DNA from: Diphasiastrum complanatum
Lineage: Eukaryota; Streptophyta; Lycopodiopsida; Lycopodiales; Lycopodiaceae
DNA length: 64,000 nucleotides
Assembly (NCBI GenBank): GCA_029204225.1
Contig: CM055110.1
Coordinates: 16,751,631-16,815,630 of the forward strand
Reading direction: 5' to 3'
Under the pieces are notes generated by a model. That model ran no database searches and was not told the origin of the DNA. It was given only the letters and a program-made list of their open reading frames with translations. This document shows, one piece after another, positions 3,480 through 64,000 of the stretch; position 1 is the first letter of the stretch, and each line of letters opens with the position of its first letter. A program made the translations under genes and the position numbers.

Positions 3480-4858
3480 TCATGTGTGGGAGAACGCCCC
3501 ACAGCGGATCGCTGCACAAACATTCCAAATTTTGATAATATAAAGATGGCATTTTATTCCAATGTGTCTTACGAAAAACTCCCAAGAGCAAAAAAAAAAA
3601 AAACAATCAATAGACAAATATCACAAATGGATATAGAGTAGACTTACAAAGTGGGCTCAGAAATATCCCTCGTCGCCACTGCCCAAGTGAGAAGGCCTTG
3701 TGGTCTATAGTCGGACTCTGGCTACCTCTCGTTGTTGTCTAAAGAGTTTTGGATCATCTTCGCATGCTTTCAGTTCTCTTTCTCCATGTAGGAAGGCCTG
3801 CCTCTCTTGGCTTTCACTGCATCTCGGATCTCCAATTTGCGGTGGCTCATCACAGCTCCCATACGGCTCCTCATCCATTTCTGTGCGATTTCCATGTCCT
3901 GGGATGAGACAAGGAACTCACTACACAGCTGGTCAATGATGCGATTCTTGCGGTCATCGTTGACATCACGCCAGTCATGAAAGATGTCTCTAGGAAAGTG
4001 GATATACATGAGCTTCCTCATGCGCGTGATGACCCTCTTATCATGGTTATTCTCAATGCCCTTCCGTATGAAAGACGTGGCTATGAGAATGTCTATGGGG
4101 GTGGCCTTAGGTATGAAAGATGCTCCGCCGACGGGAGAATACTGAGGTTGTGGGGTATCGAGGGGAGAATAGCCAATGGGGGGAGTCCAGAGGAGAGAAT
4201 ATATAGGGGGGACTGGGTGGGAGTGGGCTGATAACCCCACGGTGAAACGTGACCCCACGGCATATAGCTGGGAGGAAATGACTCAGTGGCAATGGGTCCA
4301 GAGGGAGGGAAAATGTGAGGGGTGTAAGTGGGCATGCGGAGAATCTGAGATGTGATAGATGCAAGAGTTGCAGTATCATGTGACATATGTGTTGCCTCCT
4401 AGGTCAGTGTATCTTGAAGTAGGGACTTCCCACAATGAGATGCGCTACACGGATGTTCAGGATTCATGACAACGTCAGGGTCATCGCCACATCCTCCACA
4501 ACAGGAGACACTGAGGGGGCTCCTCCTCCTCTCCCAAGAGTGTCGGGAGGAAGCACTGGCAGTAGTGACATGGGTGGGGGTGCGACCCTCGTCAAAGTGA
4601 CCCCCACGGGAAGGGGAAACATGTGACTTGTCTACATGAGGAGTGGACTGAATCTCCTCGGTCGATGATGTGTACTCAACCAATCGAGAGGAGCTACGAG
4701 CCTCGCATCAAGACCTCAAGCGTTGTAAGACCCTATCCTGTTACAAGGAAGGCAACTGGTCAAGGTAGCTAATGAGCTCACTCTCGCTCATAGAGGAAAG
4801 ATGGGATGACCCACGACTATTTCCTGACCTTTGACTAGGGGATCCAATATCTGACATA
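3480..4858 (-). pseudogene. Transposase_24-like (En/Spm-associated) gene, copy 1
   Basis: On the minus strand an ORF starts at about 4858 (MSDIGSPSQRSGNSRGSSHL...), is broken by stops in the Leu/Arg-rich part near 4700-4735, and resumes in the open frame 4258-3770. That frame has a Pro-rich spacer and then a conserved domain with RVITRMRKL, DIFHDWRDVNDDRKNRIIDQ and VMSHRKLEIRDAVKAK. The pattern (W-x-x-V, a basic helix, K-W-M, then a basic Ser/His-rich tail) fits the plant Transposase_24 family found beside En/Spm (CACTA) transposases. The copy at 52041-53756 is collinear. No catalytic transposase is present. The family name is inferred from motif pattern only. Confidence 0.6.
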
Positions 4859-16203: not shown

Positions 16204-17035
16204 TGTGAAAAATGCAAAAATAAGCTTGGTAGAGGCCAAAAATCTTGTATATAGATAAACACGCATGTGTGGAGCCTGTTCTCACGTGTGAAAATAGTGT
16301 ACTTGTCATATACCATAATCATATAGGTTGTACATATGATTTAATTCAAGTTCTAGTGGCCAAAAAGGCCAAAAACTAGTTTTCTAGACATATGACGCAT
16401 GGTATCAATATATTGCTTGCATGAGCCACATCCTTTGGTTAGGTGTCACATCTCATGTGTAGAGGAAAGCTCACATGTGTGGAATAAGCTGAAGTAGACG
16501 AATTTTGACTTCTAGAAGATTTTCAAGTAGATCTCCATATAGAAGGAAAATGGACCAAGAGTGCTCAAAATAGAAGGTTTTGTCCAAGTGTCAGTTTTGC
16601 ATGATGAATCATCATATGACAAAGCACCTTCACACATGTGAGATCAAAGGGATGATCATTACCACGAGCTCCCACTTATTGTATATATAGAGCCACATTT
16701 GGCCATAATCAGTGTGAGACACCAATCTTGGTTTTGAAAGCAATTTTGAGTGATTCTCTCCATTTGTCTACATTTGTTTTGATTGTTTTGAGGTTCTATC
16801 AATGTGTAATTGATTTTCAGGTTGGAGTCCATACTCAGACAATGTTTCACACGTGTGAAACCAGAAAGTACACTTACCTTCAATTAATGATTGTTCTTGT
16901 TAGGATTTTGTGTCTAGAATTGATCTAGATTGATCTTGATCTGAAGTAGATTGATAGATCAAGTAATCTGACAACCAATCCCTCTTCAGGATGAGATTAG
17001 GATTCACTCTTGGTCCTTTTTGTACTTTTTGCACA
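16204..17035 (+). repeat. 3' LTR of element B (LTR family B)
   Basis: The 832-bp LTR begins TGTGAAAAATGC and ends TTTTTGCACA. Its last 90 bp recur reverse-complemented at 55628-55716, where they abut a PBS, which confirms the LTR end. It contains a TATA-like TGTATATATAG near 16680 and the perfect palindrome TTTCACACGTGTGAAA at 16845-16860. It sits directly against the antisense Gypsy at 17036. Confidence 0.85.
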
Positions 17036-52040: not shown

Positions 52041-53756
52041 CTAATTATTAGATCCAGCTGAATCGTTCCCGTTCTGGCCATGGTCATCAGACTCATGTGA
52101 CTAAGATGCATGAGACTGGGACTACGATACCTATGTACAATGAAGATGTGTAAATTTTGTAAGTGATGTTGTTAGAGTGTCCGACCAAATGAATGTGGTG
52201 AAGTCAAAATATATGTTGAAACGATAATACATACCTCAGAATATCCATCCCAGTCAATTCTCACTTCTTGTCTCTCCAATAATTCGAGTAATGATTGCTT
52301 GTTGTTGAAATATGCATACTTGTACTTCTCTTTTCTGGGAGACCGCTTTACGGCAGATTTCTGCATGAACTGACAAATCGGTAATTGTAATTTAATTTAA
52401 ACAAATTCACAAATAAAATATGAATTAAGACAATATCAAATTCAACTTGTGGGTGGGGAGATATACAAAATGGGCATGAAAAGAACCTTGGCCACCATTG
52501 CCCAGGTGTGAGGGCCCTGCCGTGTCCATATTCTTCTTAGCTACCTTTTTTTGTTGCTTGAAACAATCTAGATTTTCGCGAAATTCTTTCTTTGCAAACT
52601 TCCAATCGTCCTTGCGCACATTGTATGGCCTAGATTTTTAGCCTTAATCGCATCTTGGATCTCCGATTTGCGGTGGCTCATCACGCCTCCCATGCGTCGT
52701 CCCCTCTAGATTTGGTCAAATTCCAATTCAGGGAAGGGGACTGGTCAATGACATAATTCTTTTCCTCATCATTTTGTTTGCGCCGATCCTTGAAAATGTC
52801 CTTGTTGAAGACCACATGCGTGAGTTGCCTCATGTGAGTGATGACGCGACCACCACAGTCATCCTCCACTATGTGCTTCTCCGCATCTATGTCATAGGAT
52901 GGCAAGACGTCAACTGATGGAGAGGTGCCAGAGGGAGTGTCGAGAGGAGTCGGGGAGTTGACTACAATAGCAAAAATTGGGGAGGAGTTTGAAGGCAATC
53001 ACGAGAAGATTAGGGAGGGGTATGAAGAGGAGAAGGTTGGGGAGGAGTTTGAGCGGGAGTGTAACCAACAGGGGTTTGAATGGGAGAGAAAATGGGTGGA
53101 GTGGCTTGAGAAGAGGGATCACGGTGCCATGGAGACCCCATGGGAGAGGTGGATACCGAAGAGAAAAAAAAATGTGAGGAGAGAGTGTAGGGGTGTCTGG
53201 ATAACCAAGTGTGACAGATGCCAAAGTATCATGCGCCATCTATGTTACTTCCTGAGATAGAGTTTCTCGAAGTAAGAAATGACTACAATGAGGCTTGCTA
53301 GATGGATGTGCTGGGCTAGAGGTTGCATGAAGCACGACATCATCGGCGTCACCGCCACAACAAGAGCCATCGCTGAGGTGACTCGGGCCTATGATCTCTC
53401 TTTTCTTGGGTTGAATGTTGGGAAGAGGCACTAGCATTAGAGTGCGTGGGGGAGGGACTCCCGCCGGATAGACCCTCGTGGAAGGGAAAAACACCTCGGT
53501 CGGAGGGTTTTGGACACTGGATCTCCTTAGAACGAGATGATGTGGATAACCTACCCGAACTACGTGCATCCCAACGAGCCCGTAGTCTCTCCATGATCCT
53601 GCTTGCATGCGATGGGGACATCCCATCCATATAACTGAGGACCTCATCGTCACTCATGGATGAAAAATGGGACGACCTGCGACTGCGACCAAATCCATGA
53701 CTTGGAGATGTGGTACGAGACATTGAGGATACGATTGGTATAATTGCTGCAAGCAA
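52041..53756 (-). pseudogene. Transposase_24-like (En/Spm-associated) gene, copy 2
   Basis: On the minus strand the gene opens after an acceptor TTGCTTGCAG at 53757 and reads MSRTTSPSHGFGRSRRSSHF, then a Ser-rich region. The conserved domain follows (GGRVITHMRQLTHVVFNKDI, then MGGVMSHRKSEIQDAIKAK after a frameshift near 52690). A basic helix comes next (KEFRENLDCFKQQKKVAKKN), then GPSHLGNGGQGSFHAHF. Introns fit at about 52470-52395 (donor GTATATC, acceptor CATGCAG) and after DGYSE|GTATGT near 52230. A tail HESDDHGQNGNDSAGSNN ends at the TAG at 52041-52043. At least two frameshifts and a stop make it a pseudogene. Relatives are at 3480-4858 and 1-180. Confidence 0.6.
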
Positions 53757-55615
53757 TAAAAGATATTTTTAGAAAATACAACCCTGTAGAGTTATTAAGT
53801 GCAAGAAATAGATTCAAATAAATGAGTTTAGGATTTAAAGTCTAACAAAAAAAGTGACTCTTTGCATTCATCCATAGATGAATAAATTACATTACACCAC
53901 AATAATCACAAGTAACCACAATAATTACACTTCAATAGGATGCCACCTATTGATGCCATGTGAATAAAAACATGTGGTATGATTCTACAAATGTAATTTG
54001 TGACTTTCAAGAGACTAGATTTGAACATCTTCAACAATCTAGAAGGATCTACAAAAGATCTAGCTCACAAATTTAAGAATCAAACTTCACAGTAATGACT
54101 AGTCACTTGGAAACTTTGCTTTGATCACTAAGACAAAAGCACACAATCTTTGAATCAAATCACTAAAGAAATCAGATCCAATATTCTATTGGACTCATCA
54201 AATACCAATGACTCTTTCTTTTGAAAGTTGAAATGGATATGAAAAAGATTTGACACCTAGATTTTCCTTTTCACTTGACTAGTTCTCTCAACAATTGAGA
54301 TTCTTGAACAAAAGATGGGTTTTTTTTCAAATTCAAGAAAATCAAACTTAATCACTTCTTTTGGACTCACTCTTGACCCCAAATAATCTCACACTTGAGA
54401 TTTAGAATGAATTTGATTTGATTTGACAACAAACTATACCACCAATTTTTCACAAAGCTTAAAAATTTAGACAACTAGAGATTCACAAAGATCTCAACCA
54501 TGCATGCATACTCAAATATGGACGACTCCTCATTCTAGACATCCAATGGGATCTCAAATTGACCCTCACACTCTCACAAAGAAAGTTGAATAGAACTAGT
54601 TTGAGTTTCATACATAAAATGTAAATTTTTGCTCAACAAATTGAATTCAGTCACTCCTATTGGATTCCACCAATTACTCTACCTTTTAAGACTTGGAATG
54701 AAATTCAAAATCAAAAGTTGTGATTTTTCTCACTAAAATATTGTGCTTCAAAGAGCTAATGCCACTTAGAAAGATTTGATCACATAGGAGAAGACAAATT
54801 CTCCATCAATAACAACTCAAAATGAGCTTCTAGATCTTGCCCTCTACAAAGGAAGGAACTCTTAGAAAATTGGATCTCTCTCTACACATTTGCCATAGAC
54901 ACCTTAATGACTCTTTTCAAACCTTACAATCACTCAAACAAATTGAGTAGGGTTGAACAATGTGACTTGGATCTCAATCTCTTTTCTAGAATTCTCAATT
55001 TAAGCCAATCTATGTCAAATTCTACAAAAGATTTGCATAGATGCTCTATATGCACTAGAAACTCTCAAAGGTTTCACTTGGATGATAGATCCAAGGATGT
55101 TTTCTAGCAAATTGATGCTTCTAAACTTGACCCTATCACTCTTGAACATATGTAGAGTGATGGTACAATGGATTTCAACCTCTCACCTTGCATATCACTC
55201 CTTAATCTATGATTTTTAGCAAAATCTCTCTCAACTTCAACATGCACTCAAAAAATCAGAGATAATCAATTAATGCATCTAATTCAAGCTCCAAATTTAT
55301 GATCTAATCCAATCACTAATCAAAGGATTAGATTCTCTATAGAAAATGCTTGATTTTGCACCAAAAATCACTGAAATTGGGTATGTGAGTCAAATTCTAC
55401 AAATTTTTGAAAATTATCAGTCAAAACCGGAGCTGTACAGCCTCACACGTTTGAAAAGGGTTCCTACAGCCCGCAACAAGATCTGGACCAAAAATTTTGA
55501 GGATAGCTATCAAATCCAACTTGCTACACAAAATTTGACTAGTTTCCAAAAAACTGCTAATTTTGGCTTTGATTTGGATTAACCCTATCAATTTCAACAA
55601 AACCTCTTGTACTAG
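53757..55615. other. Non-coding, probable leader of a minus-strand Copia B
   Basis: 1.86 kb of AT-rich sequence without an ORF above about 80 codons. Because a minus-strand PBS and LTR end adjoin on its right (55616-55716), it may be the long untranslated leader of a Copia B element whose body is lost. Confidence 0.4.
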
Positions 55616-55716
55616 GCTCTGATACCATGTGAAAAAAGTACAAAAAGGACCAAGAGTGAATCCTAATCTGATCCTCAAGAGGGATTGGTTGTCAAATTAC
55701 TTGATTTATCAATCTG
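55616..55716 (-). repeat. PBS and end of LTR B (fragment)
   Basis: GCTCTGATACCA (55616-55627) is a complemented PBS. It is followed by TGTGAAAAAAGTAC..., the reverse complement of the last 90 bp of LTR B (16945-17035). The LTR is cut at about 55716, where homology stops and exon 4 of the Ulp1-like gene begins. Confidence 0.85.
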
Positions 55717-57115
55717 TAGGTTCATTCGAGGCACCTTCATGCTTGTAGGGCCTTGCACATGATAGTAAAATTTCCAACATTTCATGCCGATACTGATGAA
55801 TCGCATTCGTTGATACCTCAGGACATTGGAACTGCAAAAACAAATATCGAGTGTATGTATGTATTAGCCAATCACAAAGTTAACAATATATCATCAGGAT
55901 ACTGGAACATTGAAAAAAATACCTCACGGATACTAGCATATGGAGGTTGCACCATATACCAATCCAAGAATGATTTAACATTCCAGATTGGATACCATCC
56001 GCAGTTGAAAGCATCGTCTTGTTGTGAAGACTGAGAAATCACAGCAAAAAATTGTTAAATGATAATTCAATATAATTCTAAACTACATGCCATCATGCAA
56101 ATAAAATACGTAAAAAGATTCCTTTTACCTTTGCATCAACAACCTCTATGTTGGTATTGACAACCAACCCATCCGGCCTGGGCAATAGCTCCACCATCCT
56201 TTTGTACATGGATTTAATCATGGAATGGGTGGCATGCAAAGAATTCATTATCATGCACACAGGTGTGCAGCTTCCAGTTGAATCCACTTTCATGGATATG
56301 ACGTGCACACTCCAATGTTTGCTGCCAGAAAGAGACAAGCAGTGAATAACTAGAATCTATAAGAGTTTCCAAAAGAAAAATCTTACAGAAAATAGATATT
56401 ACAAGAACAAACTATTTTACTTTGAACAGTATGGGATGATGAACATTGATGCCTCTTTGCTGGTGTGCCTGAAGAGCCTTCTGGCTTTCCTCTCTTTATT
56501 CAACAGATGCCCAAAAAATGGAGATACAACAAAAATCTCGTTCATGACTATATATGTATATTTATGTACATAGTATGCACAAGCAGATTCAACTACTGTG
56601 TCTGAGATATATGAGGTCTTCTCTTTTAGCTCCCTACAATGCAGGTCTTTGATATGCATTGCAAAATTAATATCGTCTATACAAAACATAAACTCCCCTT
56701 CGAGATCATCTATTTTCTTGGCTATATACAGGTCAAAATCAATGTACCTCTCAGAATAAAAAAATGTGTCTTTAGGTTCATTCGAAAGTCTGATGTGCAA
56801 CTCTTTATCAGCTGCATCAACATCAGAAACAATCATGTTTACCACTGTATTTAGGTCATCCTCATGTATAGAAGGAGAATCGTGTTGTTGAAGATCAGGG
56901 ATTACGGGAGGACTCTCAACCAGTGGAATTGCGGACGTACTAGCCAGATCTTTTCTAATGGGAGGAGGTGAGGGTGAAGAGCTGGGAGACCTGGTCTTGG
57001 GTTGCGAACGCTTGGGCCATGCTTGCTTTCTCTTTTTGCGGGGTGGGACAGGCCCCCTTTCAAGAGGAACTTGCCTCTGTGTGAATCTAGACTTAAAAAT
57101 GTTGTCATAGGTGTT
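55709..57115 (-). CDS. Ulp1/SENP-type (C48) cysteine protease, spliced, in frame with H3-like ORF
   Basis: Four exons: up to 56421, then 56321-56129, 56030-55923 and 55831-55709. The introns are 99, 98 and 91 bp, all GT-AG, and the phases agree exactly. The exon 1/2 junction creates YCSNKHWSVHVISM, the catalytic His-Trp motif. Exon 3 gives QQDDAFNCGWYP with the oxyanion Gln six residues before the nucleophile Cys, as in Ulp1. Upstream, SYISDTVVESACAYYVHK fits the substrate-cleft helix (W-L-x-D-x-V). Where Ulp1 has Asp (DSL) this has Asn (MNSL). The N-terminal 90 residues are a Pro/Ser/Arg-rich linker with a likely nuclear signal (PRKKRKQ). The last residues and the TGA come from LTR B, so the natural C-terminus may be lost. 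In the family such enzymes process or remove SUMO; plant transposons often carry relatives. Confidence 0.85.
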
Positions 57116-57490
57116 TCAAAGCCTCATGACAAGAAGCATGTCCTTGGGCATCAGTGTCACCCTCTTGCCATGAATGGAGCCCCGCATCGAATCCTCAAAC
57201 AAATTTGTCTGGAAATCCTCGTATGTAGTATGGAGGGCCTCCAATGCAGTGATATTCCACCTCACTGCATAGGGCAGATGGGTGGTCATGTCTTGTGTAA
57301 CCTCTCTCACAGCCCGATAGAAGGCTGCTTTCGAGATCAGAAGTTTGGTGCTCCTCTGCAAGGCCCTGATGTCCCTCAACCATGGACGGCTAGGTCTACC
57401 GGGTCTTTGCGGACGTACGGTTTCAGATGTTTGGGGACGGGACAGTTGAACGAAACTGGTAAGCCTAGCGGTTTGCTTCGTCCAAGCCAT
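57116..57490 (-). CDS. Divergent histone H3-like (CENH3-like) ORF fused in frame to Ulp1 domain
   Basis: A 124-codon ORF. The tail MAWTKQTAR matches H3 (ARTKQTAR) except Arg2 is Trp; Lys4 is kept and Lys9 is not. The histone fold covers about residues 38-124: LRDIRALQRSTKLLI (alpha-N/alpha-1), AVREVTQDM, then a loop 1 about four residues longer than H3 that ends in Arg-Trp, TNLFED (end of alpha-2), and SIHGKRVTLMPKD (loop 2/alpha-3). A longer loop 1 and a Trp there are CENH3-type features. The ORF stops at TGA 57116-57118. The next 90 codons in the same frame are open and lead into the Ulp1 domain. Aligned to H3 the stop falls at the Arg of RRIR, so CGA to TGA is a likely recent mutation. Alternatives: two cistrons, or read-through. 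Confidence 0.82.
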   Translation of the reverse strand: MAWTKQTARLTSFVQLSRPQTSETVRPQRPGRPSRPWLRDIRALQRSTKLLISKAAFYRAVREVTQDMTTHLPYAVRWNITALEALHTTYEDFQTNLFEDSMRGSIHGKRVTLMPKDMLLVMRL

Positions 57491-57558
57491 TGAGGCCGAA
57501 TATCTATACTACGCAAGGATAGAGACACATCATAAGAGACACTGAGAACTCTAACTGT

Positions 57559-57700
57559 GATATCGCTACAACGCGAGAGAGTGGTAGAGTCAGGGGCTCG
57601 CGTGATGGCGATACTGGGGAAGTCAAGCTGATATCGCTACGATGCAAGGGTGTGTAAGGAATGGGCACGGGGAGGAGGTTGCTCACGTGATGGCGATATC
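57559..57700. repeat. 71-bp tandem repeat with inverted ends, upstream of H3-Ulp1
   Basis: Two units start GATATCGCTAC at 57559 and 57630. Each also contains CGTGATGGCGATA (57601, 57686), so each unit carries inverted TATCGC/GCGATA. A weaker trace (CTACGCAAGG at 57511) lies nearer the gene. Confidence 0.7.
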
Positions 57701-57783
57701 ATGAATGCAATCAAATGTGCCAGAAAATTATGCGAAGACCTGTACAATCCCCGGGAATGGACTTATACAGGGAGAAAAATTGG

Positions 57784-58151
57784 CACGTGTGAATACCAAC
57801 GACACATGGCCCAGTCAATAGCTGACATGTGGAACCACACGTCTGTATACGCACGTGTGAAACTGCACATCTGGATCAACACGTGTGGGATCCCACGTGG
57901 GGACACGTGGCCGAATGGATCAGTGACATGTGTTCTCGCACATATAGGCTCGCACGTGTGGTCACGTGGCCCAATCAGTACCTGACGTGTGGGACCTACA
58001 CCTCTGTATCCACACGTGTGAAACTTGCACGTGTGTCCATGTGGTCCAATGGTTTAGTGACGTGTGTTCTGGCACGTGTGATCTTGCACGTGTGGGCACG
58101 TGGGCGAATGGCAGATTAACGCGTATTGTAGCACGTGTGGTCTCGCACGTG
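57784..58151. promoter_or_regulatory. G-box cluster: 14 CACGTG hexamers in 368 bp
   Basis: CACGTG starts at 57784, 57852, 57880, 57894, 57904, 57953, 57963, 58013, 58028, 58073, 58087, 58097, 58132 and 58146. Most are extended to CACGTGTG or CACGTGG. The hexamers sit in a degenerate tandem repeat of roughly 60 bp (CACGTGGCC-AATG-x-GTGACRTGTG-TCGCACGTGTG). CACGTG is the core bound by plant bHLH and bZIP factors. The block lies between the H3-Ulp1 start (57490, leftward) and a TATA box at 58231 (rightward). It could be a two-way promoter or the subterminal repeat array of a DNA transposon. Confidence 0.8.
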
Positions 58152-58230
58152 TGGACGGTTGTACTACACACCATAGATCTGATCTGTTGTTGGATCGACA
58201 AGTGTACGGCTTGGATTTTCTTGGTTTTGG

Positions 58231-58239
58231 CTATATAAA
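58231..58239 (+). promoter_or_regulatory. TATA box right of the G-box cluster
   Basis: CTATATAAA, about 80 bp after the last CACGTG and about 100 bp before the ATG at 58333. Confidence 0.45.
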
Positions 58240-58332
58240 TGTTGTTTGATCAATTAAAACATTGAGTGCTTTGTAAATAGAGAGATTTGCATTCATCATG
58301 GCAAATTTTCTTCAGATGCTACGACAATAATA

Positions 58333-58605
58333 ATGGCAATTAAAGTGTTATCCTATTTCTCGAATGTGCATAAATACCCTCCGAATACATATAAAATTAT
58401 TTTTGTGAAGAGAGACATTGCCATAAAAGTATTTGGCTATGTAGCTGAGGAAGTTCCGAAAAGGTCTTCCTCCTTAGCTGTTTTCTCTGGATACATTGAC
58501 TTGATCAAAAGAAGATCGATTGATTTTCTAGATCCATATGATAAAAAAAAAATTCTTCATGACCACACAACAAAACTGATCATTAAAGACAAAGAGAAAC
58601 AATGA
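58333..58605 (+). CDS. Small unrecognised ORF downstream of G-box/TATA
   Basis: 90 codons, Lys-rich and without membrane segments (MAIKVLSYFSNVHKYPPNTY..., ending in TKLIIKDKEKQ). Its start is well placed behind the TATA box, but a shorter upstream ATG (58299) would be met first. I recognise no family, and it may be fortuitous. Confidence 0.3.
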   Translation: MAIKVLSYFSNVHKYPPNTYKIIFVKRDIAIKVFGYVAEEVPKRSSSLAVFSGYIDLIKRRSIDFLDPYDKKKILHDHTTKLIIKDKEKQ

Positions 58606-58849
58606 TTTTGCCTTGCATTGTACTACACATGATGCGATATAATACATATACTTTTTTCGTCTGATATCATGAAATTTACTATGGGTTGAGTCTTGCATCA
58701 ATATTATTTTCGTCTATAAATTTGCACGCCTTTCTAAATTTCTGATAATTTTTTGATCTAGTTTTATATCGGATTTGAATACGCTTGTAGAACCATTGAA
58801 ATAGCTGGATGATGTAACTATTTTTTTGAGATGTTCCACTGTGTTGTGT

Positions 58850-60215
58850 ATTTTGATGAAATGCTACTCTGGCTTACCAATGCAATTTCTCCATTTCTTG
58901 TGATGACCAAATACTTAGACTATCGTAAGCTTTTGCAAAAAATGATGCATGATGTCATAAAATGTGCTGCAATATCAAAGATACAAATATTGTCATATTA
59001 ATCATTTTAAATTTAGCATATGTGCAATGAGATTATAAATTGAAGAGTTAGTTACATTGAAAAGAGATTTACCATATAATGCGTAATATGATCTTCACCC
59101 CAGGCGTCTTTAACTGCATCCACAAACTCAATTGTTGATTTCTCAATTAGTAGGACATCAGTATCAGATAGTTTATCTTTTATGAGCAATTTGACCATGT
59201 TGTCAAGCTTTGTCCAGACTTCAACTTTTTTAATCCTCGTTGTTCCTTTTTCTTCAAAATCCTTCGTGGCATTAAGTACATCTATCCAAATTGAGTATTG
59301 GATATCTTTGATGATTTTAAACATTGTGTCATATGCATTCCTGCTAATACCAGAATAATCACATGCCCCTTTTATCAATTTTCGGTCAATGATCTTGCCG
59401 ACTTCGCCCATAAGGGCCTCTGCAATCTTGGACTTGATTCGAGAATATCGTTGATTTCCAAGTAGACTCATTGTTGACTTGGCTGTAAGTACTGCACTCA
59501 AAGACTCTCCAATCATGTCCTTGTCTTTCAGATTTTCATTGGTGACTAAAGCTGATCTGCAAAAGAAAAATAAGATTTAGAAAGAAAATAATTCACAACC
59601 ATTGAGTGCTAGATGAAACAAAACACATGAATAGTTTAAAACATAATCTTACTTGAAAGCATATATTTTTTTTTCCGTTGACCCCCACTTGTTGAAAGCT
59701 TGTCAATACTTTTTAAAATAACTCTTTTTCGCTTATTGTTTAGTATTTTCTTATGTATTGTGTTTACTTCTACATTTATTTGACAATATGAGGTACGCAA
59801 TGTTTGTACAATTAGTTTCATATTGTTTGATTAAGTTTAATATAATATCTTGCAAACGAGAATTATCTATCTTCAAGATTTCATTCTCTTCTTTTGTTTG
59901 CAAAAAATTAGTTTCTCTTTCTCGGTAGTCAGTAAGCAAACCAGTCAACATATTTTCCAAACAATGGATTTTTTTCATTGAATTACTAATGCCATAACTT
60001 TTCAATCTTTCACAATAACCTAATAGACCATTGTGTCCTTCACACAAAAACAGTAGGAGTTGTGTGACCGATCTAAAATTTGGATGTTGCATTGAGCTTG
60101 GATTGATTGGATACAAACTTCCATCAACCCATAGATCACAATGTTTCCTATCTTCTGTCCTTTGGTGAGCTGGTAAGGTGGATCCTTTCAGATTTTTTCT
60201 CGACAGTGGAGCATA
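58850..60215 (-). CDS. Unrecognised multi-exon gene, helical/coiled-coil, partly frameshifted
   Basis: On the minus strand an open stretch starts near 60215 (AHQRTEDRKHCDLWVDGSLY, then PNFRSVTQLLLFLCEGH) and continues into a coiled coil (FLQTKEENEILKIDNSRLQD). It shifts frame near 59830 into a segment with a basic motif NNKRKR. A donor A|GTAAGAT lies near 59650. The next exon follows TTTTGCAG at about 59558 (SALVTNENLKDKDMIGESLS, then helical sequence to GEDHITHYM) and ends at donor ATG|GTAAATC near 59071. A last exon near 58968-58830 reads YLVITRNGEIALVSQSS and is conserved at 14500-14655. No known domain recognised. The phases across two junctions do not fit, so it may be a pseudogene. Confidence 0.45.
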
Positions 60216-60942
60216 TTATGTGGGAAGATCAATATGGAGATGATATTTAGACATCTTAATAATCGATAGATTAATCTAGTAGAAAACCAACTTGTTATAT
60301 ATCTTGTAAGCTATTAAAACTCGTCTTAATTAAATAAAAAATTAATTGAAAAAGTTTGAAATGACCTTGGCGCTCTTTTTGATCCATCACACTCCATGTT
60401 TCTTGCTTGATATGCAAAATCAATGCTTTGCAGCTATGAACAAAATAAGCAAAATATTTTTTCAATAGATGTGTGTTGAAATCGCAAATTTTTGAATTGC
60501 AAAAGCTTGAAATAACCTTACCGCTCAATTTGATCCAACACACTCCGTATTTTCAGAATTGCAAAAATATAGATTCACATTGGCGCTCATTGTGATCCAA
60601 AGTATTCAAGGTTTTTTGCCATGATTTTCAGATCGATAAGACTGTTTTTCATTGATGTGAACGCTTTGAGTAGATGGAAAGAAAACTTTGATGTGCAATA
60701 CGATTTGCATTTACATAAGAAGTTATGTTAGTTAATGGTAGAAAATAGAATCTTGAAGTATGGATCCCACGAGTTGCGGCTACCCAACTTCCAGTTAACT
60801 ACATACGTTACTAGTGAGGTCAAGTCATCAGAGTTGTGCAGGCAGACCAAAAACTCGGTTGGAGTTTTAAAATCCGACGATTTTCTCTCTCTTACGTGGC
60901 ATTTCTTAGATAGCCCTTTTGGGCCTTGGAACTCCTATAATA
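60216..60942. other. No gene seen
   Basis: AT-rich. The phrase TTGAAAT(G/A)ACCTTGGCGCTC and its variant ACCTTACCGCTCAATTTGATCCA recur at about 60354, 60509 and 60573 together with ATCCAACACACTCC(A/G)T, a diverged short tandem repeat. Confidence 0.35.
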
Positions 60943-61341
60943 TACATTCATAAATCCATTTCATAAGAGACCCAATCTGCTTTATTGAAATGAAGATATG
61001 TACATGTGTAGGAAACTCGAGTTGGTCCCTTCTTAGAGTAGAGAGGAGGAACCTGGCCTTTGAATCTTATTGGTCCATTTCTGCCTCCCTAACTATTCAA
61101 ATTTAAAAGAGAGTGAGAACCCATTCAAATTGGAGAGAAACCCAACTTTATTCACTAACTTGACATGTAGGCCCTACGACATTAAAAGTCCCGCAAAAAG
61201 CCTTAAAGGCCTTTGATTAACTATCTAATTAATCAAATAACTATGTGATCATCGGGTTGGACTTACACACATTGGGTGCCAAATCCCTCTCACTTATTAA
61301 CTAGGGTTAGGGTTGCCTTGGGATCCGCAAACCCTCCAACA
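60943..61341 (-). repeat. LTR D fragment, reverse orientation
   Basis: Reverse complement of the first 400 bp of LTR D (TGTTGGAGGGTTTGCGGATCC starts at 61341 reading leftward). Forms an inverted pair with 61893-62655. Confidence 0.85.
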
Positions 61342-61892
61342 TGGAAACAACAGAAACATAGTGAAATTTGCTACAGCATCCACACCCCAAATTGGCCCAT
61401 CATTCACCAAACATACAATTGGTAGATATCAGTTTATTTTATCAAAGCACTTCAGTTTTATGGTGCTGAGTACCGAAATTCGCCAGATCCAACTGTGCAA
61501 CAGTCGGTAATATTTGTCAATGATTTGTCCAAGTTGGCATCCACTGCTACGAGATGGGATGATTGCCTACCTCCTTTGGCATTCAATCCAAATGTTCCCA
61601 TGGCATCAGATAAAGTTCATGACCAGCTGCCAATCGCTAGATTATATTATCGTGCAGCAATGCTGGGTGGTACTTAAGAATCAAGATTTTTGGCCTGGAC
61701 CACTTCAAATTGGATTGCTGGAGCAAATAAGTATTTTTTTTTGCACAAATATGATTTTAATACGGAGTGTCTGAAATTCATGGATTAGGTGCAGTACCAT
61801 CTCATCAAGGTACGACGCGAGCAAAACTAGAGCCCAAAATGAATAAACCCGCGAGGTGTCATGGGACCGCCACCAGTTTTGGTGGGGGATAT
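61342..61892 (+). other. Spacer between inverted LTR D copies
   Basis: 551 bp. Its right end, CCACCAGTTTTGGTGGGGGATAT, is a polypurine-type tract as expected just before a 3' LTR, so this is residual internal sequence of element D. No domain is readable. Confidence 0.5.
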
Positions 61893-62655
61893 TGTTGGAG
61901 GGTTTGCGGATCTCAAGGGAACCCTAACCCTAGTTAATAAGTGAGAGGGATTTGGCACCCTACGTGTGTAAGTCCAACCCGATGATCACATAGTTATTTG
62001 ATAATTAGCAAGTCAATAAAAGGACTTTAGTCCTTTTTGCGGGACTTTTAATGTCGCAGGTCCTAAATGTCAAATTAGTGAATAAAGTTGGGACTCCCAC
62101 CAAAATTGGTTCAGATTCAAAGTCGAATTCCCATTCTTTTTTAAATTTGAATAGTTAGGGAGGTAGAAATGGGCCAATAGACTTTTGAGGCCAGGGTCCC
62201 CCTCTCCACTATAAAAAAGGGCCAACTCGAGTTTGCTAGACATGTTCATATCCTCATTTCAATACAAGCAAATTGGTTCTCTTATAGAATGAATTTGTGA
62301 ATGTCCTTGCTCTCTATCAATTTTCCTTCATCTCTCATGCTTTTGTTATATTTGCTAATTGTTGGATCTAATTATTATTAGAATTGCTATTTCTTATACT
62401 TTTTGTGAGAGAGGAAGGGAGAGAGAGAAAGAGTAAGCTATCATCATTGTGGAACATAGTGTTAATGGATGTACTGTTAATGCTTAGGATTAATGGATGT
62501 TAGAGTTAGATGTGGATCTTCCATTCATGCTGAATTTTGAGATATGCTATCACTCTCATAAGAACGAACCTACGCATGACAACTAACTTCATCTCCTTGA
62601 TGCCAGATTGCTTGGATCTTGGGTTGAGGATAGGCTAGGAAAGAAGCCCACTACA
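61893..62655 (+). repeat. LTR D, full length, forward
   Basis: 763 bp, TGTTGGAGGG...CCCACTACA, homologous to 36299-37078. TATA-like CACTATAAAAAAGG near 62208. Confidence 0.85.
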
Positions 62656-63490: not shown

Positions 63491-64000
63491 GGAACTAGAG
63501 CAAATGCAATCAATCTTACAATCTATTCGATTTGAAAACTTACGATTACTTAAGGATGTGGAAGTGGCTAAGAAGAAGGCTCTGAATAACAAGCGAAAGC
63601 GAAAAAGTAGCAAGGATATTTAAACTCTTTCAAGAGGATGTTATCAAAATAGAAGGATTCGTGCATTCAAGTAAGCATATTTTGATTTTTGTAACTTGAT
63701 CAATGATATATGGATTTATTTCAGCTACGATGATATTCTGCTAACTATCTGGTTTTTGGCAGATCTGCATTGGTAGCTCCTCAGAATATTAAGGACAATG
63801 CTTCACTTGGAATGTTGTTGGGCTCAATATTGACAGGCAAATCCAGTGAGTGTATCATGATGAACAATAGACATTAGAGAAAATTTGAGCACAAAAGGGG
63901 CCTCTCAAAAAGATATCTTTTATTTTTTTCTCAAAAGTTTCTTCCACATGGTCCAATGAAAACACTCAAATTTGAAATCTACGTAACGTAGCTCCTTCAA
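63491..64000 (+). other. Unassigned; possible short coding exon
   Basis: The plus strand reads SIRFENLRLLKDVEVAKKKA and then a Lys/Arg cluster (NNKRKRKSSKD) to a stop at about 63622. The basic cluster resembles NNKRKR in the gene near 59700, but that is too short to link them. The rest to the window end shows nothing. Confidence 0.25.

Follow-up and report, generated by a model that had tools for sequence, protein, structure and literature searches.

A predicted histone H3–Ulp1-like fusion protein encoded by a multicopy DNA element of Diphasiastrum complanatum

The fused gene and its copies in the genome

Results of our analysis indicate that a gene on the minus strand of a 64,000-nt stretch of the Diphasiastrum complanatum genome (assembly GCA_029204225.1, CM055110.1, positions 16,751,631-16,815,630; the whole stretch is hereafter called the window) is, with very high probability, a decayed copy of a transposon gene for one protein composed of a histone H3 domain, a linker, and a domain similar to Ulp1-type SUMO proteases. 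Its carrier is a DNA element of about 10 kb, present in many copies and bounded by inverted ends. In a script-checked model, it extends from 57490 to 55709 and consists of four exons that share one frame with a single in-frame TGA between the H3-like and Ulp1-like parts, exactly as the original prediction had described it. The three introns, whose splice sites and agreeing phases had also been predicted, are all of the GT-AG type, measure 99, 98, and 91 bp, and have phases 2, 0, and 0, while their T content is 45-48%, as compared to 22-31% in the coding pieces. The features of the gene region are as follows:

57490-56421, minus strand: exon 1 (script-checked model)
57119..57490, minus strand: H3-like histone domain of 124 codons, starting with MAWTKQTAR (PF00125 match)
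57116..57118, minus strand: in-frame TGA (a stop in 6 of the 41 copies read)
56842..57115, minus strand: basic, Ser/Pro-rich linker between the two domains (shared substitutions lean synonymous, p 0.033)
56421..56841, minus strand: remainder of exon 1, coding for the N-terminal half of the Ulp1-like domain (gene model and profile matches)
56129..56321, minus strand: exon 2, with the His motif (HWSVHVI) and MNSL (gene model and profile matches)
55923..56030, minus strand: exon 3, with QQDDAFNCG containing Gln and Cys (gene model and profile matches)
55709..55831, minus strand: exon 4, derived from a long terminal repeat (LTR) below about 55718 (comparison with other copies)
55628..55717, minus strand: retrotransposon LTR end with a primer-binding-site-like sequence, truncating the element (94% over 88 bp)

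The G+C content of the H3 part (52%) and of the linker (49%) differs from that of the Ulp1 part of exon 1 (36%), and thus the two halves may come from different sources.

The window copy of the gene is decayed and dead. Its Ulp1-like domain had seemed complete, but the gene is cut short at its 3' end, where the final codons and the stop at 55709 belong to the LTR end. The native C-terminus, which could be recognized in 6 of the 10 copies examined for it, is about 22 residues past the cut, so that the window copy lacks the last ~22 residues of the native protein. The LTR remnant (55628-55715) is 94% identical over 88 bp to window positions 16948-17035, and next to it there is a motif that resembles a primer-binding site.

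The genome of the same plant (1.74 Gb in 5,176 contigs) was searched for other copies. A first look with the H3 part produced 6,213 candidates, and the best 150 of them, when scored, all matched at 81-100% identity; the Ulp1 exon gave 5,118 candidates, of which the best 150 scored yielded 152 matches, 150 of them listed. Among the matches listed, 60 of the 150 for the Ulp1 exon have an H3 match at most 400 nt upstream on the same strand, and the gap in 46 of these 60 pairs is exactly one codon. In all 20 Ulp1 matches chosen for having no listed H3 partner, an H3 part was found directly upstream when about 520 bp were read; it is partial or frameshifted in several of them, and the junction codon is a sense codon in 18. 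Among the 21 copies for which the alignment spans the entire gene, the junction holds a sense codon for Arg or Gln in 17 and a stop in four. Altogether, the junction codon is sense in 35 and a stop in 6 of the 41 copies with both halves, a set that excludes two loci with the H3 part but not the Ulp1 part (L025 and L026) and whose members are not wholly independent (the window copy and L022 represent one insertion, and the pairs L044/L046, L045/L056, and L048/L049 are very alike). Loci L001-L004, L006, and L007 were left unaligned as the same as, or near-identical to, copies already included. Since copies without the stop, for which a search had been proposed, prevail to this extent, the TGA of the window is copy-specific damage. 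In L013, the spliced frame has no stop and exon 1 no indel. The two halves lie next to each other in 18 of 20 regions from one fetched set, as well as in L005, L008, and the window copy, and in the 20 additional loci mentioned above, which agrees with the earlier view that they are not two pseudogenes joined by chance. Taken together, these sequences indicate that the H3–Ulp1 fusion is real and multicopy and that it very probably specifies one joined protein.

A hidden intron skipping the TGA was considered and rejected. Of 141 frame-keeping candidates, scored with splice-site weights, the best reached totals of 11.3 and 10.2, less than those of the modelled introns (11.6, 13.2, and 15.9), and would excise much of the histone. 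Such an intron is also needless, because most copies carry a sense codon at the junction.

The locus L022 (C19:27.0 Mb) agrees with the window copy in its 5' flank, its stop codon, and its 3' junction, and thus one insertion was duplicated on C19. Of the best 150 H3 matches, 46 are clustered at C3:18.5-21.7 Mb and around 30 Mb, and four at C14:49.6-49.9 Mb. The C3 copies that were read are cut just past the H3 domain and lie inside a local repeat; these dense clusters could represent a satellite-like or centromere-linked array.

The histone half and divergent families

The H3 part belongs to the histone H3 family, as it matches the Pfam Histone profile PF00125 (E 2.9e-21), similarly to its counterparts in L013 (E 2.5e-23) and L035 (E 6.6e-25). 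Its top match in the PDB is a chain of a CENP-A/H3.1 chimera (E 7.9e-20), and a single-sequence fold prediction, weak by its predicted local distance difference test score (pLDDT 50.5), places the helices in the expected order.

A search with the Arabidopsis CENH3 sequence revealed divergent families of H3-like genes. It returned 13 matches at 53% identity, presumably ordinary H3 genes, followed by many H3-like matches at 34-56%, many of them with long open frames. Six of these loci were fetched. In three of them (L035, L036, and L037) the H3 domain, the linker, and the N-terminal part of the Ulp1-like domain lie in one open frame, and their products are respectively 33%, 30%, and 43% identical to the window protein. 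The Gln-Cys motif is kept in L035 and L036, and the catalytic His also in L035. The frame of L036 (L036:1-1107) opens with residues similar to those encoded by gene 1 of the element (described below) and continues as the H3 domain, possibly as a result of a deletion that joined gene 1 to the H3 gene.

The histone half is probably of the CENH3 type, as the original prediction had proposed, although the phylogenetic evidence for this is divided. In a tree of 16 sequences, including reference sequences, the fusion families L035-L037 and the window family form one clade (support 95/94), and the element H3s group with plant CENH3 apart from the five H3, CENP-A, and Cse4 sequences (90/93, not starred). 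In an earlier tree, however, the grouping of the element H3 with H3 was not rejected by the approximately unbiased (AU) test (p 0.22). The element H3s do not form one clade in the best tree, and a single clade was not rejected either (AU p 0.35). Plain identity to canonical H3 (57/119) and to Arabidopsis CENH3 (42/91) does not separate the two possibilities. CENH3 proteins have a longer loop 1 with Trp. The dipeptide RW is present at loop 1 in 21 of 21 window-family copies and, without a longer loop, in L035 and L037, while L036 has RF; the motif LLIP occurs at helix 1 in most copies. The element histone has LLIP, the RW of loop 1, and the MARTK start in common with plant CENH3, but differs from it in its short tail with leucine at position 9 in place of a long N-terminal tail, and in running into a linker.

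The commonest start among the copies is MARTKQTAR, with the window copy having MAWTKQTAR. The tail keeps ARTKQTAR around K4 and has leucine at position 9; among the copies chosen independently of any motif, K4 is present in 21 of 21, and so is Leu9. After the addition of 16 tails found by means of a motif that fixes K4 and Q5 (four of 20 loci gave no tail), lysine occurs at position 9 in none of 37 tails, and any lysine between positions 9 and 36 in only seven of the 37. In H3 numbering, the H3-H3 interface residues H113 (19/19), D123 (19/19), and L126 (18/19), all three counted in the 19 copies with the anchor motif, are mostly conserved, as are the DNA-contact arginines R69 (18/21), R72 (19/21), R83 (21/21), and R116 (18/19). 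These features fit a histone that could enter nucleosomes but not take methylation at K9 or K27; because the tail has no K9 and nearly none of the other lysines, it would not receive the usual repressive methyl marks.

Selection

Substitutions were counted in 20 copies (L022 was left out) and divided into those shared by at least three copies and those private to one copy, with substitutions found in exactly two copies being excluded. The ratio of synonymous to nonsynonymous changes in the H3 part is 22:13 for shared and 28:67 for private substitutions (p 6e-4; p values here are those of the one-sided Fisher test). It is 7:5 versus 23:63 in the linker (p 0.033) and 37:33 versus 87:269 in the pooled sequence (p 3.9e-6). 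The private changes in H3 (28 synonymous, 67 nonsynonymous, and 4 nonsense) are to be compared with fractions of 0.30, 0.66, and 0.04 expected without selection under assumed transition weights. Nonsense changes occur only among the private substitutions, with none among those shared in H3. The mean pairwise ratio of nonsynonymous to synonymous divergence (dN/dS) is 0.34 for H3, 0.52 for the linker, and 0.60 for the Ulp1 exon, at a mean dS of 0.154, 0.090, and 0.116, respectively; mean intron divergence is 0.174 for intron 1 and, in poorer alignments, 0.345 and 0.603 for introns 2 and 3. As shared changes are mostly synonymous and private ones look neutral, the protein was constrained during the multiplication of the element, and the copies decay neutrally after insertion. 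The evidence of past purifying selection is strong for H3 and fair for the linker, and amounts to a trend for the Ulp1 exon.

The Ulp1-like half

The similarity of the second half to Ulp1/SENP proteases is, by sequence comparison, distant but beyond chance. Compared to a profile of three sequences (SENP1, SENP8, and yeast Ulp1, each verified against a PDB chain), the Ulp1 part scored 18.7 bits, while its reversed sequence scored -1.6, and the top score among the 4,079 shuffles reported out of 5000 was 11.3. In pairwise comparisons with SENP8 and with yeast Ulp1, it exceeded 1000 of 1000 shuffles. A profile-profile comparison, in which the window copy was combined with three other copies (one of the same family and two divergent), gave P 4.3e-6 (probability 86.8), as opposed to 0.35 for the reversed control. 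The His, Gln, and Cys of the domain sit at the catalytic places, as they do in SENP1, SENP8, and Ulp1 (C48 peptidases), from which the domain differs in having Asn for Asp, in its low identity (11% in the profile alignment), in a longer loop past the His strand, and in giving no Pfam match.

The mobile element

In the fetched stretches, collinearity between copies extends over about 8 kb. The 3' end of the element is sharp in five copies, and its 5' end was located on C2, where it precedes the ATG by 6,053 bp, as well as on C8 and C10. Both ends consist of imperfect inverted repeats of 31 bp. A 29-base pattern of these ends has 1,261 + 1,210 = 2,471 matches in the genome at up to two mismatches (control 0), a number that includes all ends and not only those of elements holding the gene. 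Judging from the positions of the ends, the element is about 10.0 kb long on C2, 9.9 kb on C1, and 10.0 kb in a second C2 pair. Common ends on dispersed copies with unrelated flanks characterize it as a DNA transposon with inverted ends, and the association of the gene with a mobile element, suggested at the outset, is thereby established.

In addition to the H3–Ulp1 gene, the element contains gene 1, which lies on the same strand and has several exons, the divergently transcribed gene 2, and gene 4 located downstream. Gene 4 (L016, L020, and L021) is encoded on the opposite strand about 2.4-3.7 kb past the ATG, and a stretch of it may resemble a BAH domain, for which there was no Pfam match. 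Assignment of the element to known superfamilies was not supported by a Pfam search of nine open reading frames (ORFs) of genes 1, 2, and 4, which detected no domain, or by comparison of nine end pairs, three by eye and six by script, none of which has a target-site duplication of at least 2 bp. Three of the scripted pairs (10.1 kb on C3, 20.8 kb on C4, and 13.5 kb on C2) may not hold the gene and may not be single elements. The 8-bp duplications and transposases of hAT and of KDZ/Zisupton elements were thus not found in these ORFs and end pairs. Mutator-like elements have a MULE transposase and target-site duplications of 9-10 bp; for Kaonashi/KIU Mutator-like elements, likewise, the nine ORFs contain no MULE domain, and the nine pairs no duplication.

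The window copy matches the C2 copy (blastn) in collinear blocks 60941-59305, 59303-58265, and 58263-55718, and has lost, in addition to its 3' part, two internal segments of about 1.1 and 1.4 kb, the deletion junctions being close to 59304 and 58264. Its features are as follows:

55718..60941, minus strand: element copy, from the 5' end to the 3' truncation (blastn versus the C2 copy)
60912..60942, minus strand: 5' terminal inverted repeat (pattern match with 8/31 mismatches; same end in other copies)
58679..60215, minus strand: remnant of gene 1, multi-exon, putatively transposase-like (ORFs 60215-59751, 59576-59052, and 58873-58679; homologous to fuller copies; no Pfam match)
58258..58605, plus strand: remnant of gene 2 (ORF; by eye matches L009, L013, L014, L020, and L021)
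57491..58257, no strand assigned: intergenic region between gene 2 and the H3–Ulp1 gene with CACGTG-rich diverged repeats (common to other copies)

The CACGTG-rich repeats, located at 57803-58154, are perhaps binding sites for factors of the element itself or of the host.

Comparison with known systems

Captured H3 genes in fungi and Ulp1-like domains in plants are known separately in transposons, and their fusion is an unusual protein among transposon-encoded chromatin effectors; neither an H3–Ulp1 fusion nor a histone encoded by a plant transposon was found among the papers listed by searches of open PubMed Central text. The Kaonashi/KIU proteins of plant Mutator-like (VANDAL) elements likewise represent a transposon-encoded Ulp1-like domain in many copies, but no histone is described in the cited parts of the relevant papers (PMC13317346, PMC6117577), and in the element studied here neither a Mutator domain nor a duplication of 9-10 bp was found. 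The presence of KIU in Vandals has been tied to the hypomethylation of related elements (PMC13317346, PMC6117577). Fungal hAT elements of Pyrenophora and Pseudocercospora, about 9.5 kb long in the latter, are likewise multicopy DNA elements with an H3 gene; that H3 is a captured transcript of a host gene, the elements have 8-bp duplications, and the cited text describes no fusion (PMC6710886). In contrast, the H3 studied here is probably of the CENH3 type, is fused, has been under selection, and belongs to an element in which no duplication was seen. Other chromatin modifiers encoded by transposons include TET/JBP proteins in several fungal lineages, SET proteins in HarbingerS and MuDR, and an anti-silencing protein of Vandal elements (PMC12730594). 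They also act on epigenetic marks from within an element but are enzymes or sequence-specific regulators and not histones.

Proposed role and alternative explanations

The explanation that we favour, and which as a whole appears reasonably probable, is that the element encodes a chromatin effector combining a silencing-resistant histone with local removal of SUMO. The histone half would pair with host H4 and enter nucleosomes at the element, and possibly centromeric chromatin too. Its tail, with K4 but without K9, would be closed to the common repressive methylation, the Ulp1-like half joined to the histone would strip SUMO from nearby silencing or kinetochore proteins, and both halves together would sustain expression of the element or direct where it inserts. 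The anti-silencing mechanism, taken by itself, is a serious possibility that falls slightly short of being probable. More tentative is the broad version, in which a transposon superfamily builds its own chromatin. Its H3 would retain the K4 motif, offer no site for methylation at K9 or K27, and be tethered to a deSUMOylating enzyme, and nucleosomes on the element would in this way escape silencing by both K9 methylation and SUMO. If true, a functional histone encoded by a transposon as an anti-silencing effector would be of a new kind, and a mobile element would act on host chromatin from inside the nucleosome. This makes it testable whether selfish elements evade silencing via histone variants, and whether the Ulp1-like domains acquired again and again by plant transposons serve to remove SUMO locally. 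A natural fusion of a CENH3-type histone could also be of use in centromere work.

A number of observations weigh against this explanation. The Ulp1-like half has no match in Pfam even at E<=10 and no meaningful match in the PDB (best E 1.5, to unrelated chains), and when it is compared pairwise with SENP1, 465 of 1000 shuffles score as high, which does not exceed chance. The catalytic motifs had been predicted to fit. His, Gln, and Cys do, but all four aligned sequences, which represent three families, have Asn in the column of the triad Asp. This may point to altered or no protease activity, and Cys is lost in L037. The His-Asp-Cys triad with Gln that characterizes the Ulp1/SENP (C48) family is thus not present in full, and because of the Asn and the loss of Cys we name the domain Ulp1-like and not a member of C48. 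As regards selection on each half, proposed as a check, constraint was evident for H3, while the shared (8:15) and private (36:139) ratios of the Ulp1 exon differ as a trend only (p 0.10). Of the 21 aligned copies, 19 carry a stop or a frame-breaking indel. A consistent separation of the two parts, which would have spoken against the fusion, was not observed, yet H3 occurs without the Ulp1 part in the truncated L025 and L026 of the C3 cluster, and L038 and L040, which with L039 form one divergent family, show a stand-alone H3-like ORF. This ORF contains LIPRAPF, ends with RRERN or RSERH at the usual H3 C-terminus, and lies near an ORF that is, by eye, similar to gene 2. The absence of a target-site duplication in the nine end pairs is unusual for a cut-and-paste element, and the motifs of gene 1, which we read as those of a putative DDE-type transposase, get no support from Pfam. 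As for the related systems, one review calls the function of their Ulp1 domain unknown (PMC13317346), and another states that the Kaonashi proteases show hardly any expression and probably do not act on SUMO (PMC6117577).

The main rival explanation, which we consider unlikely but by far the strongest of the alternatives, is that the protein is directed to centromeres, with the CENH3-type half homing it and new insertions there and the Ulp1-like half acting on SUMO-regulated kinetochore proteins. It is consistent with the LLIP and RW motifs shared with plant CENH3, with the grouping of the element H3s with plant CENH3 sequences (90/93, not starred), and with the clusters on C3. SENP6/Ulp2 are described as balancing CENP-A chromatin, which SUMO proteases stabilise (PMC10172491), and alphaKNL2 SUMOylation and ULP1d as acting at Arabidopsis centromeres (PMC12903445). 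However, the C3 copies read (L025 and L026) have no Ulp1 part and lie inside a local repeat; by plain identity the H3 part is no closer to CENH3 than to H3, and its grouping with H3 was not rejected (AU p 0.22). Moreover, since SUMOylation promotes the binding of alphaKNL2 to CENH3 in Arabidopsis, as the same source states (PMC12903445), removal of SUMO there could have a weakening and not a protective effect.

It is improbable that the fused gene is a passenger, captured once, without a role for the element, and decaying, with its common frame being historical. Most copies aligned here are indeed broken, and the captured H3 genes of Pseudocercospora hAT elements are described as mostly truncated and dead (PMC6710886). 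A passenger would not account, however, for the lean of shared substitutions towards synonymous ones, with nonsense solely among the private ones, or for the retention of the fusion and its motifs across families at 30-43% identity.

Still less probable is a remnant of an endogenous large DNA virus with histone and Ulp1-like genes. Some giant viruses do carry histones and Ulp1-like proteases, but the introns, the short inverted ends with thousands of copies, and the absence of a recognised viral gene among the ORFs read argue against this origin. IMG/VR was scanned with three single queries (H3 part, Ulp1 exon, and a gene 1 exon); these scans, which reach close relatives only, revealed no relative. 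Finally, two separate genes sharing a frame by chance, with the TGA as the normal end of a histone gene, as its position near the natural H3 C-terminus and the stand-alone genes of L038 and L040 might suggest, are extremely improbable and, for the window family, refuted by the sense codon in 35 of 41 junctions, the linker being open and constrained as well.

Other features of the window

At position 63872, an inverted end of the same kind lies inside another gene-1-like fragment (63504-63880), which points to a nested insertion that leaves the window. A large imperfect inverted repeat (60983-62264, with arms of 137, 110, and 102 nt) is located just outside the 5' end of the element. Two degenerate gene remnants on the minus strand (52571-53768 and 3804-4779), related to each other by similarity at the protein level, probably belong to another transposon family.

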